Source: Candidatus Sumerlaeota bacterium
GTDB taxonomy: Bacteria > CG03 > SLGR01
DNA length: 6,054 bases
Reading direction: 5' to 3'
NCBI GenBank assembly: GCA_007136585.1
Contig: SLGR01000165.1
Span: forward strand, 1-6,054
Below, one piece after another: positions 1 through 5,590 of the stretch. The position numbers and the translations under genes are program-made. The first letter of the stretch is position 1. Each line of letters starts with the position of its first letter. The notes beneath the pieces were generated by a model. That model saw only the letters and a program-made list of their open reading frames with translations, did no database searches and was not told the DNA's origin.

Positions 1-89
1 CTTACCGCTGTTATAAGGACACCGGCGATATCCTTTTTCTTAGGCGGGACCGGACCGGAAGAACTTTTACTGCCTTTCCTGGGCGGCAT
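1..89 (-). CDS. ftsK: Probable N-terminus of DNA translocase FtsK (partial)
   Basis: An open frame starts at an ATG (87-89) and runs off the left edge. Its 29 visible codons read MPPRKGSKSSSGPVPPKKKD followed by IAGVLITAV. A short basic, Ser/Pro-rich cytoplasmic tail followed by the start of a hydrophobic segment is the usual beginning of FtsK/SpoIIIE proteins, which pump DNA at the division septum and are anchored by N-terminal membrane helices. The start lies inside the end of the preceding winged-helix-like gene, with a 23-base overlap, so the two are probably translationally coupled. The only purine-rich stretches upstream are GGGGAAG, directly against the ATG, and an AAAGG about 11 bases away. 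FtsK is often found downstream of rpsO-pnp, which supports the call. None of the diagnostic motor domain is in the window, so another membrane protein remains possible. Confidence 0.5.
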   Translation of the reverse strand, partial: MPPRKGSKSSSGPVPPKKKDIAGVLITAV

Positions 90-291
90 CTTCCCCGGTG
101 ACCTTTATAACTTTGTCACTTCCTTCCTGAAGAACATCAAACCCGCCTGAAGCAAGAAGCATACCGGCGGCGATAAGCAGTTCGGAGGCCCGGCAGCCGA
201 GCCGCTCTCTCAGCTGGGTTAATGTGAGGCTTCCGGTTTCCCTTACGAGACGGTCTGCCCGGGAGGAGAGCTGCTCAATTCGGGATCTCAT
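67..291 (-). CDS. Small putative winged helix-turn-helix protein
   Basis: This is a 74-residue protein that I cannot assign to a named gene. The predicted order is a helix around residues 3-17, a second helix after the TLTQLRERLG segment (23-32), a third helix at RASELLIAAGMLLASGG (about 34-50), then a short beta-like pair (FDVLQEGSDKVIKV) and a disordered acidic/Gln tail. That is the size and order of a minimal winged-helix domain, with a 'replace the rule, then read one level deeper' pattern typical of wHTH modules that bind DNA or a protein partner. No catalytic motif is visible. The ATG at 289-291 is the first possible start, since an in-frame stop lies two codons upstream. Its ribosome site is weak (GGA about 11 bases ahead). 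It follows accB by 41 bases and overlaps the putative ftsK start, so it looks like a genuine operon member rather than a chance frame. Confidence 0.6.
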   Translation of the reverse strand: MRSRIEQLSSRADRLVRETGSLTLTQLRERLGCRASELLIAAGMLLASGGFDVLQEGSDKVIKVTGEDAAQERQ

Positions 292-332: not shown

Positions 333-827
333 TTAAAGGTTCTCTATCTCGAAAAGAGGATCGTTTACTTTGACCGGAGCCGCGTTTTCCGCGATAGCCT
401 TTACTATACGGCAGGGGTTTTCCACCTGAACCTCGTTCATAAGTTTCATAGCCTCTATTACGCATACAGTCGCGCCGGAGGAGATCTCGTCACCCTCCGC
501 CACATAGGGGTCTGATCCCGGAGAGGGAGCGCGGTAGAATATTCCGTTCATAGGGGACCTTATGCAGGTCTTTTCCTTTACGGGTTTCCCCCCGGCGGGG
601 GCGGCTGAAGGAACCTCGGGCTGCGGCGCAACCGCCGTGGCGCCCCCTGCCCTGCGCACCCGTATGCTGATCCCGTCTTTCTCCTGCCAGGAAACCTCAA
701 GGAGGTTCTCCTCTTTCATCAGTTTATATACCCTGGATATATCCCGCTCCGCGACAGAGAGTTTTTTTCCCTTGCTGACCGTCTTTTTTTTCGCTCCGGT
801 TTTTGTCTTCTTCTTTGATTTTGCCAT
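333..827 (-). CDS. accB: Biotin carboxyl carrier protein of acetyl-CoA carboxylase
   Basis: The protein (164 residues) carries biotin between the biotin carboxylase and carboxyltransferase parts of acetyl-CoA carboxylase, the first step of fatty acid synthesis. The C-terminal biotinyl domain (about 86-164) has the motif EAMKLMNEV, with Lys128 as the predicted biotinylation site. It also has the SPMNGIFYRAPSPGSDPYV segment, including the 'thumb' loop that marks true AccB rather than other biotin carriers. Residues 28-60 match the conserved N-terminal region (RDISRVYKLMKEENLLEVSW). A Pro/Ala-rich linker spans about 62-83. Unusual is a Lys-rich tail at residues 1-22 ahead of the normal AccB start. 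The ATG lies four bases after the pnp stop, which is a tandem TGA-TAA, and has no clear ribosome site, so it probably depends on ribosomes finishing pnp. No accC follows, although accB-accC is the common pairing. Confidence 0.93.
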   Translation of the reverse strand: MAKSKKKTKTGAKKKTVSKGKKLSVAERDISRVYKLMKEENLLEVSWQEKDGISIRVRRAGGATAVAPQPEVPSAAPAGGKPVKEKTCIRSPMNGIFYRAPSPGSDPYVAEGDEISSGATVCVIEAMKLMNEVQVENPCRIVKAIAENAAPVKVNDPLFEIENL

Positions 828-831
828 TTTA

Positions 832-2952
832 TCAGTCGCCGTAATGTTCCTTTTTCTCTTCGTTCACCTCTTCGGGGGTAAGGGCCGCCACACGGCTGAG
901 ATTAATCCTGCCGCGGTCGTCAATCTCAAGACACTTTACCCTGACACTGTCGCCTTCGCTGAGTATATCGGTGACCTTTCCTACCCTGTAGGGGGCAAGC
1001 TCTGATATATGGACCAGTCCTTCCTTCCCCGGAAGGACCTCTACAAAGGCTCCGAACTCCATTATTTTCTTGACCGTACCGTCATACAGGGTTCCCGGCT
1101 CCACGTCGTCTGTGTACCCACGGACAAGTTTCTCTGCCCGTTCCAGGTCTTCTTTTGACTCGGCGCTTATTATAACCGTCCCATCGTCTTCAACGTCTAT
1201 ATCGGCACCCGTATCTTCCTGTATCCCCTTGATATGCTTTCCACCCGGACCTATAAGAGACCCGATCTTGTCAGGCTTTATCTGAAGCGTGGCAAGCTGC
1301 GGAGCATAGGGCGAGAACTCGGTTCTTGAAGCGGGGATGGCTTTCTCAAGCTCATCTATCGTCCTGATACGGGCCGCCCTCGCCTGTTCCAGGGCCCTCT
1401 CAAGCACCTCCCGGCTTATCCCTTCAACCTTTATATCCATCTGTATGGCCGTCACACCGTTGCGGCTCCCGGCAACCTTGAAATCCATATCCCCGGAATG
1501 ATCCTCATCACCTACCATATCCGTAAGAATAACATCCTCTATTATCCCCATCCCCACTCCGGCGACGGTGGATTTAAGAGGAACCCCGGCATCCATAAGG
1601 GCCATTGAGCCGGCGCAGACCGTTGCCATTGAGGATGACCCGTTGGATTCCAGTATATCCGAAACCAGGCGTATGGTGTAGGGAAAATTTTCCTTTGACT
1701 CAAGCATGGGCAGGATGGCTTTCTCAGCCAGGAGCCCGTGCCCTATCTCCCTTCTTCCCGGACCCCGGAGGAACCGGGCCTCGCCCACCGAATAGGGAGG
1801 AAAATTGTAATGAAGCATAAAGTGCTTCTTATACTCCCCTTCGAGCTCATCCATAACCTGCTGGTCGGAACCCGTTCCAAGTGTGGTGACCGCAAGGGAC
1901 TGGGTCTCCTCCTTGGTGAATATAGCAGACCCGTGCGTGCGGGGAAGCACCCCCACGGAGCAGGTTATCTTTCGTAACTCATCGGGTTTGCGCCCGTCCA
2001 CCCTGAGTTTCTCGTCTCTTATCAGGCAGCGGAGTATCTCCTTCTCAAGTTTACCGAAAGCTTCCTTGATATCTGATGAGCGATCCTCCTCATCTTCGGT
2101 TCGTCCGGATTCAAAACGGTCAATTATCTCCTGCCGTATCTCTTTCAGCGCTGAAGAACGCTCCTGTTTTCCAAGGGCTTTCTTAAAGGTATCCGTAATC
2201 CTGCCGGAAGCAAGCTCACGCACCTCCGTCATAAGGGAATCGTCTATCTTAGGAGGAGTGAACCCGGCCTTGACGGGAGAAACCTCGTCTATGATGCTCT
2301 TTTGCGCTTCAACAATCTTACTGATGGCATCCCTGGAAGCCTCAATAGCCTCTAAGATCTCTGTCTCGGAAGCCTCAAACGCCTCGCCTTCAAGCATTGT
2401 CACAGCTGACTCTTTACCGGCAACAATAATATTCATTGTGGAGGACTCCAGCTGGCTGAAGGTAGGGTTCACTATGTACTCGCCGTCAACCTTACCTATC
2501 CTTACAGCTCCTACGGGGCCCTGAAAGGGAGCATCCGAAAGGGCTGTGGCGCAGCTGGCTCCGACAAGAGCGGGGATATCCGAATCATTTTCCCCGTCGG
2601 AGGAAAGAACTGTTACTATTATCTGAACCTCGTTGACGTATCCATCGGGAAAAAGAGGCCTTATAGGCCTGTCTATAAGTCTGGAGGTTATTATCTCCTT
2701 CTCCTGGGGGCGTCCCTCCCGCTTAAAGAACCCTCCGGGTATCTTTCCGGCAGCGTAGGTTCTCTCCCTGTAGTCAACCGTAAGCGGAAAAAAGGACTGT
2801 CCTTCCCTTGCCTCGGCCGTACAGCATGCTGCAAGCACCACCGTATCGCCATAGGACACCTTCACCGCTCCCCCTGCCTGCCGGGCCAGTTCCCCGGTCT
2901 CAAGCACAAGTTTCCTGCCGTCAATCTCAATCTCTCTCGTAATCTTACTCAT
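832..2952 (-). CDS. pnp: Polyribonucleotide nucleotidyltransferase (PNPase)
   Basis: This is the phosphorolytic 3'-to-5' exoribonuclease, which forms a trimeric ring and often joins an RNA degradosome. Its 706 residues are the normal length and all domains are present: first RNase PH core (about 1-145, with FFKREGRP at 76-83), helical linker (about 150-310), second RNase PH core (about 315-545), KH domain (about 555-613, IGPGGK at 567-572) and S1 domain (about 619-688, GTVKKIMEFGAFVEVL). The catalytic stretch GDEDHSGDMDFK (481-492) supplies Asp484, Asp490 and Lys492, equivalent to E. coli Asp486, Asp492 and Lys494, so the enzyme should be active. The C-terminal tail after S1 is short and charged. 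The ATG is preceded by AGGG at a workable distance in a purine-rich leader. It follows rpsO, as in most bacteria, and is followed almost directly by accB. Confidence 0.98.
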   Translation of the reverse strand: MSKITREIEIDGRKLVLETGELARQAGGAVKVSYGDTVVLAACCTAEAREGQSFFPLTVDYRERTYAAGKIPGGFFKREGRPQEKEIITSRLIDRPIRPLFPDGYVNEVQIIVTVLSSDGENDSDIPALVGASCATALSDAPFQGPVGAVRIGKVDGEYIVNPTFSQLESSTMNIIVAGKESAVTMLEGEAFEASETEILEAIEASRDAISKIVEAQKSIIDEVSPVKAGFTPPKIDDSLMTEVRELASGRITDTFKKALGKQERSSALKEIRQEIIDRFESGRTEDEEDRSSDIKEAFGKLEKEILRCLIRDEKLRVDGRKPDELRKITCSVGVLPRTHGSAIFTKEETQSLAVTTLGTGSDQQVMDELEGEYKKHFMLHYNFPPYSVGEARFLRGPGRREIGHGLLAEKAILPMLESKENFPYTIRLVSDILESNGSSSMATVCAGSMALMDAGVPLKSTVAGVGMGIIEDVILTDMVGDEDHSGDMDFKVAGSRNGVTAIQMDIKVEGISREVLERALEQARAARIRTIDELEKAIPASRTEFSPYAPQLATLQIKPDKIGSLIGPGGKHIKGIQEDTGADIDVEDDGTVIISAESKEDLERAEKLVRGYTDDVEPGTLYDGTVKKIMEFGAFVEVLPGKEGLVHISELAPYRVGKVTDILSEGDSVRVKCLEIDDRGRINLSRVAALTPEEVNEEKKEHYGD

Positions 2953-3033: not shown

Positions 3034-3303
3034 TTACTTGCGTATCTTTGTTTTCTTTATAAGCTGGCTATATCTCTCGGGGCTGCGTTTCTTAAGGTAA
3101 TCAAGAAGCTTTCGCCTCCGGGAAACCAGCTTGAGAAGTCCGTACCGGGAGTGAAAATCCTTCTTATGGGTCTTAAGGTGTTCTGTCAGGTTGTTTATCC
3201 TCTCGGTAAGGATAGCTACCTGAACCTCGGGGGACCCGGTATCTTCATTTTCCCTCTGGTACTCCTTTATAAGTTCCTGCTTCTTATCTTTGGTTATGGA
3301 CAT
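3034..3303 (-). CDS. rpsO: Small ribosomal subunit protein uS15
   Basis: The 89-residue protein matches S15 throughout. It is a primary binder of the central domain of 16S rRNA that helps organise the platform of the small subunit, and its helices also contribute to a bridge with the large subunit. The conserved [10 protein letters not shown] stretch lies at 21-30 and the [25 protein letters not shown] block at 46-70. His42, Asp49 and Ser52 correspond to the rRNA-contacting residues of E. coli S15. The ATG has a strong purine-rich site, AGAGGGGAGAG, some 10 bases upstream. It follows the diguanylate cyclase gene by 22 bases and precedes pnp by 81, the classic rpsO-pnp pair. No separate rpsO promoter is evident in the preceding 90 bases. 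Confidence 0.98.
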
Positions 3304-3325: not shown

Positions 3326-4627
3326 TTAACCGGCCGCGCATATCCTGTCGCGCCCCTCTTCCTTAGCCCTGTAAAGGGCCCCGTCGGCTTTACCTATGAT
3401 TCCTTTTAAATCTACACCGTCATCCGGATATGAGGACACCCCGAGACTAACCTTTACGGAAACCTCTCCCGGAGCGGAGCCCTCCCGGGACATTCCTTTC
3501 CTTATCCTCTCTCCCAGCGCCATGGCCCCTTCCTTGGGGGTTTCGGGGAGTATTACGCAGAACTCGTCACCGCCGTACCGGCATACCGTATCCGCCCTGC
3601 GGACAGCCTTCTTCAGGTACCGCGAAACGTTTTTAAGGATCTTATCGCCCCTCAGGTGTCCGTAAGTATCGTTTATTTCCTTGAAATTGTCAAGGTCAAT
3701 TATAATTAATGAGAGGGCCCTGTCGTAACGCTGGGCGCGGCTGAGTTCGGTCTCAAGATGTTCCTGAAAATACCTGTGGTTGTAAAGGCCGGTAAGCCCG
3801 TCTGTCACTGAAAGACGGCGGGACTTCTGATAAAGTATTATATTCTCTATCGCTACCGTGGAGTGGTTGGCGAAAGTGGAGAGAAGCCTGCGGGAGGAAC
3901 CGGAGAAACCCCTGCTGGCGGATCTGCCGGTTATAACAAGTCCGCCTGTGACCCTGCCCCGTGACCGGAGCGGGGCGCAGAGAGCCGCCTTAAATTCACG
4001 CGCACACCCTTCAGGAACCTGGTCGAAAAGAGAAATGGTCTCAACCCCGGGAGGCCACTCCCTGAGCTTATCGACAGCCCGGCTTACCAGAACCGCCTCC
4101 GCATCCGGGGAGAGCCCCCAGGTTGACTTCATATCAATGGAGCTTCCGCTTTCATCCATAAGGATTATCATCCCCCCGTCATATTTTGTTGATTTTATAC
4201 AGGAGGAGAGTATCAGCATCAGCAACTCTTCAAGCCCAATCCCGGCAGTCATCCGCGCGGAGACCCTGTGGAGTTCCGCCTGCACCTGTCTTTCCACAAG
4301 AAGGCTGCTCAGAATATGCTTGGTAACCCCGCCCAGAAACTCTATCCCTCTCTCTGCGGCCGCCCGGCGGAGTTCATCTTCAATCTCCGTACCGTCGGTA
4401 AGGTCAAGAATAGCCTCCGGCGGGTCTTCCGACTCAAGGTACTTCCGCCACTCCGTATCCGTCTCAATACCCAGACGGTCGGCCAGTCTCACCCCGGCGG
4501 CCCCGGGATTTATGTCGATAACTGCCGTTATCTCAACCTCCCTATCCTCGTTTAGAACCTCGATACTGGCCAGTCCGCGGCGCCCGCCGCCTACGATAAG
4601 AATCTTTGTTTTATGTTTTGATTTCAC
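3326..4627 (-). CDS. Diguanylate cyclase with Rossmann-like, GAF and GGDEF domains
   Basis: This 433-residue soluble protein probably makes cyclic di-GMP from two GTP. Residues 7-105 look like a Rossmann fold: beta strand KILIVGGGRRG with the GxGxxG pattern at Gly13, Gly15 and Gly18, then VIDINPGA with acidic Asp38 ending the second strand, as in NAD-preferring folds of the Gfo/Idh type. A GAF-like domain spans about 125-265. The GGDEF domain (about 272-432) is complete: DGLTGLYNHRYF, metal-binding DLDNF (Asp311), the signature YGGDEF at 351-356 and the inhibitory I-site RxxD at 343-346. The enzyme should therefore be active and product-inhibited. No transmembrane segment or signal peptide is seen. 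The start is GTG (4625-4627), the only usual start codon between the in-frame ribF stops and the first strand, with a weak ribosome site. It is an unusual insertion between ribF and rpsO. The ligand of the N-terminus is inferred, not shown. Confidence 0.9.
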   Translation of the reverse strand: MKSKHKTKILIVGGGRRGLASIEVLNEDREVEITAVIDINPGAAGVRLADRLGIETDTEWRKYLESEDPPEAILDLTDGTEIEDELRRAAAERGIEFLGGVTKHILSSLLVERQVQAELHRVSARMTAGIGLEELLMLILSSCIKSTKYDGGMIILMDESGSSIDMKSTWGLSPDAEAVLVSRAVDKLREWPPGVETISLFDQVPEGCAREFKAALCAPLRSRGRVTGGLVITGRSASRGFSGSSRRLLSTFANHSTVAIENIILYQKSRRLSVTDGLTGLYNHRYFQEHLETELSRAQRYDRALSLIIIDLDNFKEINDTYGHLRGDKILKNVSRYLKKAVRRADTVCRYGGDEFCVILPETPKEGAMALGERIRKGMSREGSAPGEVSVKVSLGVSSYPDDGVDLKGIIGKADGALYRAKEEGRDRICAAG

Positions 4628-4640
4628 GGTAAAGTTTACC
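4628..4640. repeat. 13-base perfect palindrome at the cyclase start codon
   Basis: GGTAAACTTTACC has six-base arms around one central base and directly abuts the GTG start of the diguanylate cyclase gene. It sits about 22-35 bases downstream of the predicted transcription start. As DNA it has the form of an operator for a dimeric regulator. As RNA it could form a five-pair hairpin with a three-base loop that hinders initiation. Which, if either, applies cannot be told from one copy. Confidence 0.4.
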
Positions 4641-4669: not shown

Positions 4670-4698
4670 ATTTTACTACTCTGAGTTTTGGATGTCAA
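4670..4698 (-). promoter_or_regulatory. Sigma-70-type promoter for cyclase-rpsO-pnp
   Basis: Inside the last codons of ribF the minus strand reads TTGACA (4693-4698, a perfect -35), then exactly 17 bases, then TAAAAT (4670-4675, five of six matches to the -10). An A/T-rich run follows. The predicted start is near 4662-4664, giving a leader of about 35 bases before the GTG of the diguanylate cyclase gene. The promoter would let the cyclase, rpsO, pnp and later genes be transcribed separately from truB-ribF. Activity has not been shown, and the organism's sigma factor preference is unknown. Confidence 0.65.
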
Positions 4699-5590
4699 AT
4701 CTGATCTTCTCTATATCAGAGGAGATCCGGGCGCGGAGGCTTCCGACGCTGGAGAACCGCTCAGGATCCCTTATCTTCCCAAGAAGGACGGCCCCGCAGA
4801 ACCTCTCTTCCGAATTCTTATCGCAGTCCAGGAGATGCACCTCCACGGAAACCTTCCTCCGGGGACTCTCCCCCACACTTACCTCTCCTATAAAACACGC
4901 TCCGTATACACCGGCGGGAGCTCCGGAAAGATCTGTGACCATTTCGCATGAAAAAACACCCCGGGGAAGAAGTTTCCCTTCCTCAACATCAAAGTTAAGA
5001 GTGGGATAACCTATCCTGCCGCCCAGGCCCCGGCCGCGGACCCTGCTCCCTGTAAAATAAAATTTTCGCCCCAGCATCTTCTCCGCCTCTTTAAGCTCTC
5101 CTTTCTTAATCAGATCCTTTATAAGCGAAGAGGATATCTTCCGACCGTCAATCTCAGCCATCTCCGCCACTCTTACTTCAAGGGATCCTCCGGATTTTCT
5201 TAGAGTCCCGAGATCTCCCCGCCGGTCTTTTCCGAACCTGAAATCAGGACCGACCGATATACTGTAGGCTCTGACCCGGCTTCTCAGGAAACCGTTTATG
5301 AACTCTTCCGGGGTCCACTCCATCCACTCCCCGTCCGGAGGAAAAACCACTGCGAGATCAACACCCGCCCGGCTCATCAGGGAAAGTTTCTCTCCGGTAG
5401 TAGTAATAAGCCCCCTCTCGGGCTGCTCAAAAGTAACTGCGCAGACCTGTCCTTCCCCCCTGGAACGGGCCGCATCAACAGCTATTTCCGTTACCTTCCT
5501 GTGCCCTAAATGAAACCCGTCAAAAAACCCCGCCGCCGCCGAGACAGGCCGGGAAAGAGAGAGGTTCTTATAATCCCTAATAACTTTCAA
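4676..5590 (-). CDS. ribF: Bifunctional riboflavin kinase / FAD synthetase
   Basis: The 304-residue enzyme phosphorylates riboflavin to FMN and then adenylates FMN to FAD; the length is normal. The N-terminal adenylyltransferase half shows GFFDGFHLGH (21-30), the nucleotide-binding His motif, then VGPDFRFGKDRRGD (113-126) and ISSSLIK (152-158). The C-terminal kinase half shows GSRVRGRGLGGRIGYPTLNF (181-200), with the essential PTxN at 196-199, and VEVHLLD with the likely catalytic Glu250. Some positions differ from the common consensus: TFEQPE at 53-58 where TFEPHP is usual, Lys158 where Arg is usual, and FIGEVSVGES where NIGxxPT is usual. The start is a TTG (5588-5590) whose last two bases are shared with the truB stop TGA. 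No other start exists between an upstream in-frame stop and the first motif. It ends with tandem TAG-TAA. Confidence 0.96.
   Translation of the reverse strand: MKVIRDYKNLSLSRPVSAAAGFFDGFHLGHRKVTEIAVDAARSRGEGQVCAVTFEQPERGLITTTGEKLSLMSRAGVDLAVVFPPDGEWMEWTPEEFINGFLRSRVRAYSISVGPDFRFGKDRRGDLGTLRKSGGSLEVRVAEMAEIDGRKISSSLIKDLIKKGELKEAEKMLGRKFYFTGSRVRGRGLGGRIGYPTLNFDVEEGKLLPRGVFSCEMVTDLSGAPAGVYGACFIGEVSVGESPRRKVSVEVHLLDCDKNSEERFCGAVLLGKIRDPERFSSVGSLRARISSDIEKIRFDIQNSE

Follow-up and report, generated by a model that had tools for sequence, protein, structure and literature searches.

The window, that is, the whole stretch of 6,054 nucleotides analysed here (Candidatus Sumerlaeota bacterium, contig SLGR01000165.1), carries the gene order truB-ribF-DGC-rpsO-pnp-accB, in which DGC encodes a diguanylate cyclase built from an N-terminal Rossmann domain, a GAF domain and a C-terminal GGDEF domain (Table 1). 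A sequence-only reading had placed this gene inside a ribF-rpsO-pnp operon, and the gene order agrees with that placement. An ORF of 74 aa that belongs to no known family follows accB (window 67-291, minus strand); it is conserved in the order and has ftsK as its next gene in one related locus (L036). A search with Rfam revealed no RNA element in the window.

Table 1 Features of the cyclase locus (window coordinates)
Feature	Coordinates	Strand	Remarks
Rossmann-GAF-GGDEF diguanylate cyclase	3326..4627	-	433 aa, GTG start
Rossmann (Gfo/Idh-like NAD-binding fold) input domain, residues 1-120	4268..4627	-	GGGRRG 13-18, D38, DLTD ending strand 4
GAF domain, residues 132-261	3845..4234	-	PF13185 32.1 bits, above cut-off
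GGDEF catalytic domain, residues 274-428	3344..3808	-	RxxD I-site 343-346, GGDEF 352-356
rpsO, ribosomal protein S15	3034..3303	-	22 nt after cyclase gene
pnp, polynucleotide phosphorylase	832..2952	-	ordinary RNase PH, KH, S1 domains
accB, biotin carboxyl carrier protein-like	333..827	-	PF00364
ribF, riboflavin kinase/FAD synthetase	4676..5590	-	upstream neighbour of cyclase
sigma-70-type promoter TTGACA-N17-TAAAAT	4670..4698	-	precedes cyclase gene

The GAF and GGDEF domains

The catalytic domain matches the Pfam family GGDEF (PF00990) with 168.9 bits against a cut-off of 23.8 (E 1e-49), and the middle of the protein exceeds the cut-offs of two GAF families, GAF_2 (PF13185, 32.1 vs 28.6 bits) and PF01590 (29 vs 22.4). 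The cyclase active site is intact, with D311, N319, D328, the GGDEF motif itself (including E355) and K422 all in place. In an alignment with 12 homologues the metal- and guanine-binding residues are unchanged, the exception being D or E at position 354, and the I-site residues R343 and D346 are invariant. Both the GAF-like middle and the intact GGDEF domain with its I-site, as noted from the letters alone, are thus upheld. Judged by these residues, the GGDEF domain is apparently an active, product-inhibited enzyme. Pfam found no match in the cyclase to the globin that forms the haem sensor of DosC-type cyclases. The full-length AlphaFold model has good domains and a low pTM of 0.44, so the orientation of the domains is not fixed by the model.

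The N-terminal Rossmann domain

The GxGxxG motif of the cyclase is formed by G13-G14-G15-R16-R17-G18 and the acidic residue that ends the second strand is D38, with the first two strands at 7-12 and 31-37 in the AlphaFold model. Modelled together with 12 homologues, residues 1-121 reached a pLDDT of 86 and showed strands and helices alternating as in a Rossmann fold. Acylating acetaldehyde dehydrogenases were the top PDB match in Foldseek (4jn6_B, E 4.3e-6), with NAD-dependent Gfo/Idh enzymes next in rank, and VIA-align superposed the domain on 4lrs_B with a Z of 13.5 and 1.8 Å over 99 residues. A profile search of PDB sequences returned 1nvm (1.6e-5), further acylating dehydrogenases and 3nkl, with Rex appearing weakly (5zz5, E 0.0076). 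In Pfam the N-terminus scores below the cut-off with several Rossmann families (GFO_IDH_MocA 0.0077, CoA_binding 0.011, DapB_N 0.019); for GFO_IDH_MocA (PF01408) it attains 17.3 bits where 24 are needed, a cut-off that homologous Rossmann domains clear (L042 with 30.2, L047 with 28.6 and L089 with 34.4 bits). The domain is a divergent relative of the NAD domains of Gfo/Idh enzymes and acylating acetaldehyde dehydrogenases, and the fold proposed from its motifs is confirmed by model and structural comparison.

With the N-terminal NAD-binding domain of the Gfo/Idh/MocA family it shares the Rossmann fold, the GxGxxG motif and the acidic end of strand 2, and NAD-bound GenD2 and inositol dehydrogenases are among its best structural matches. 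However, the cyclase lacks what follows in those enzymes and is joined to signalling outputs instead. The Gfo/Idh C-terminal catalytic domain has no Pfam match in the protein at E<=1, and the EKP motif with the catalytic lysine is absent from residues 90-105; the protein should therefore not work as a dehydrogenase, in line with the earlier remark that catalytic residues are not evident. The N-terminal domain of acylating acetaldehyde dehydrogenases of the DmpF/HsaG type is the best match in both sequence and structure (1nvm, 4jn6, 4lrs), but here too the catalytic part is missing and no aldolase partner was seen. The Rex redox repressor offers a functional likeness, as its Rossmann domain reads NAD(H) to steer an output (3wg9, Z 10.7). 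Rex acts through a DNA-binding helix-turn-helix, whereas the output of the cyclase is a GGDEF domain reached via GAF; Pfam found no HTH match in the cyclase that could represent the N-terminal winged helix of Rex, and its Rossmann domain begins at residue 7.

A module shared with other signalling proteins

Relatives of the domain were found by searching with an alignment of the Rossmann region; a scan of genome contigs with the single sequence had given no match. The domain is present in 35 of 386 sampled genomes from several phyla, fused to HD-GYP (L045, L046), GGDEF-HD (L100), GAF-PAS-HisKA (L098), PAS-HisKA-HATPase (L047, L048, L057-L059), HisKA-REC-REC (L061, L065) and sigma-54 AAA+ plus Fis HTH (L089, L091, L093). 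The fusion domains were called by Pfam in L045-L047, L062, L089, L091, L093, L098 and L100 and by reading the sequence in the remainder. Such joining of one module to many outputs is the pattern of an input or sensor domain. In a third small phylum the module is joined to V4R (L062 by Pfam, L063 and L064 by similarity), and the PAS-histidine kinases L047, L048 and L057-L059 also end in a degenerate GGDEF-like stretch, matched by Pfam in L047 and judged by similarity in the rest.

The Rossmann-GAF-GGDEF order itself recurs in the operon copies of two phyla, described below, and in four genomes outside both, where it is not near rpsO (L074-L077). The operon cyclases form one clade separate from these other Rossmann-GAF-GGDEF proteins (100/100). 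The main text of a 2022 census of c-di-GMP sensor domains mentions no Rossmann, NAD-binding or oxidoreductase domain (PMC8846402), which fits the view of the sequence-only reading that such a sensor is uncommon on GGDEF proteins. Our literature searches found no work uniting diguanylate cyclase, Rossmann fold, NADH and sensor, and none joining GFO_IDH_MocA and GGDEF; within the literature searched the sensor module is undescribed. Through it, c-di-GMP networks would gain an input that senses dinucleotides directly, beside the inputs already known. As the module is common to kinases, HD-GYP proteins and sigma-54 activators, a single answer about its ligand would explain many orphan regulators.

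Conservation of the cyclase-rpsO-pnp linkage

The cyclase is encoded in 14 of the 16 genomes of its own small phylum, which has deposits labelled Elusimicrobia MAGs as its closest named relatives, and this recurrence of gene and location shows that it is not there by chance. In 12 of the 13 resolvable loci (L024, whose contig ends inside the gene, is excluded) rpsO-pnp follows it immediately, a count made over the loci of this cyclase alone. The sole exception is L030, from genome G007, where the cyclase is apart from rpsO-pnp. In one of the two genomes without a cyclase, G013, rpsO likewise escaped detection, so the assembly probably lacks this region. In a second small phylum the cyclase is found in four of six genomes, each time directly before rpsO-pnp, and the remaining order truB-ribF-rpsO-pnp-accB is kept as far as the contig reaches; its two other members have truB-ribF-rpsO-pnp without the cyclase. 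The linkage is therefore not strict: in all, three genomes (G002, G022, G023) have rpsO-pnp and no cyclase. Family f6 of the window's phylum retains rpsO-pnp after the cyclase in five of six cases, and in the one f6 locus whose upstream neighbours were identified (L031) SurA-SurA-PdxA stand in place of truB-ribF. The linkage thus holds at 34% protein identity, across two phyla and with the upstream genes replaced. This conservation is at least as notable as the Rossmann domain, and a literature search, judged by titles and abstracts, found no report of a diguanylate cyclase-rpsO-pnp operon. The diguanylate cyclase of the window is genuine, conserved and out of the ordinary, combining a known kind of enzyme with an unusual sensor module and a striking conserved location.

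Some loci vary in detail. The cyclase of G010 is broken up, with two overlapping ORFs that differ in frame (L027, 3828-5121, and L040), through either a frameshift or an assembly error. One genus has a gene of the chloramphenicol-acetyltransferase fold (PF00302) between ribF and the cyclase (L026, 4356-4988; L039, 7273-7905), and L027 has an ORF of similar size at that place.

A sigma-70-type promoter element directly before the cyclase gene

The pattern TTGACA-N17-TAnRnT, a near-perfect match to a sigma-70 promoter, lies directly before the cyclase in all 10 loci checked from the window's own taxonomic order and the second phylum, and these are the only matches on either strand of the 10 loci. 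Shuffling the window 200 times yielded no match to the closely similar TTGACA-N17-TAnAmT. Across the genome the promoter pattern occurs 30 times against five for a reversed control, which agrees with its being a true class of sigma-70 promoter. We considered whether TTGACA is conserved merely through overlap with the C-terminal FDI codons of RibF, and rejected this because the element persists outside ribF (L023, L026, L027, L043, L044), in loci where another gene stands upstream or the upstream gene stops sooner.

Nine of the 10 loci (e.g. L025, L026, L028, L042-L044) have 8-12 nt between the end of the -10 box and the cyclase start codon, so that the cyclase mRNA would be leaderless or nearly so in those loci; the window has 42 nt there. 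On this sequence pattern, the cyclase of the window's order probably heads a transcription unit with rpsO-pnp-accB. The loci of family f6 are without a TTGACA-type promoter ahead of the cyclase; in them a TATAAT-type site precedes rpsO. A perfect inverted repeat, GGTAAA-C-TTTACC, is situated downstream of the window's promoter and directly before the cyclase GTG (4628-4640, minus strand). It is a possible operator, and it is not visible in the upstream sequences of the other loci compared.

What the Rossmann domain may bind

NAD-preferring enzymes typically close strand 2 with an acidic residue, the position held here by D38. In 4l8v, the A12K/D35S variant of Bacillus subtilis inositol dehydrogenase with NADP, the mutated positions are equivalent to 16 and 38 of the cyclase by our own motif alignment. 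Across the wider Rossmann family, K or R at 16 is usually paired with D or E at 38, and members with GAG[DE]G carry R at 39. This charge pairing between 16 and 38/39 is phylogenetically nested, since the three sequences of the swapped type all belong to one clade, and two sequences do not follow it; it is no statistical proof and is only suggestive of an adenosine-ribose pocket.

The likeliest reading of these residues is that the cyclase of the window senses NAD(H). The ligand of the domain might instead be CoA, acyl-CoA, a different nucleotide or some metabolite, or the domain might serve purely as a structural or dimerisation module whose glycine loop is a relic, which we think somewhat unlikely. 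Acylating, CoA-using dehydrogenases are among its nearest sequence relatives and the protein has a weak CoA_binding match. Moreover, in families f5 and f6 of the window's phylum the GxGxxG motif is degenerate (AGSRRS, GGSVRS, GGDVRS, ASGERD) and D38 is gone from most members, yet the remainder of the protein is kept, including R17 and the [ND]x[TS][GD] motif that ends strand 4; NAD binding is thus not universal among the orthologues. A relic or a different ligand sits less easily with the invariance of GGGRRGLA in the seven sequences of the window's own order, with that of GGGRRG, D38 and, nearly, N40 in fusions to GGDEF, HD-GYP and kinase outputs drawn from three phyla, or with the K/R16-D/E38 pairing being usual over most of the wider family. 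That the domain retains an NAD-dependent enzymatic step coupled to signalling is highly improbable: it belongs to the same superfamily as the dehydrogenases, but the catalytic domain and EKP motif of Gfo/Idh enzymes are missing, as noted above.

A proposed mechanism and its possible targets

We propose, with a probability of about one half, that the protein is a cytoplasmic one-component cyclase in which a dinucleotide bound by the Rossmann domain sets c-di-GMP production, and whose gene is co-transcribed with rpsO-pnp-accB. The N-terminal domain would derive from an NAD domain of the Gfo/Idh or acylating-aldehyde-dehydrogenase type, stripped of catalysis, and would bind a dinucleotide, most likely NAD(H). 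With ligand and direction of control both as we infer them, binding or redox state would be relayed along the helix at 100-125 to the GAF domain and on to the GGDEF dimer; the dimer would make c-di-GMP within a limit set by the I-site. The cyclase gene would start its own transcription unit from the strong promoter and continue into rpsO-pnp-accB, so the enzyme would be made together with S15 and PNPase.

The most speculative step is an action of c-di-GMP on the co-produced PNPase, as reported for the E. coli enzyme, with PilZ receptors as the ordinary alternative. PNPase is described as a c-di-GMP response enzyme in the E. coli DosC/DosP complex in the 2022 census (PMC8846402), and its listed affinity for c-di-GMP is 2.9 µM (PMC10519070). 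The shared operon makes PNPase an attractive target, and its local control by c-di-GMP is a testable idea based on this analogy. However, all 16 genomes of the phylum encode PilZ proteins and the window's genome has nine GGDEF matches, so PNPase need not be where the c-di-GMP acts. We give slightly less than even odds to the cyclase being an ordinary global source of c-di-GMP acting via PilZ, its place by rpsO-pnp a frozen insertion into an otherwise unchanging operon, with no functional link. Vertical inheritance can preserve such gene orders, sister genomes have truB-ribF-rpsO-pnp and no cyclase, and in G007 the cyclase is apart from rpsO. Against a frozen insertion, the linkage has outlasted divergence to 34% identity, the separation of two phyla and the swapping of upstream genes, and a conserved private promoter heads the unit.

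The NAD-domain-like front part of the cyclase and the location of its gene suggest a link among cell metabolism, c-di-GMP and RNA turnover. The strongest form of this proposal, in which NAD(H) redox read by the Rossmann sensor sets the c-di-GMP made with PNPase and S15 and thereby directly tunes RNA decay, is rather unlikely. If true, it would amount to an independent equivalent, encoded in an operon, of the DosC/DosP-PNPase link of E. coli, and one that has become fixed in two uncultured phyla. Whether c-di-GMP controls PNPase beyond E. coli is an old question, and the conserved location ahead of rpsO-pnp lets it be tested directly with one operon. The E. coli complex (DgcO/PdeO in its other nomenclature) likewise ties a diguanylate cyclase to PNPase (PMC8846402), whereas the tie here is genomic alone; the cyclase sensor is a Rossmann domain rather than a haem globin or PAS, its gene adjoins pnp, and the window is without a paired phosphodiesterase.
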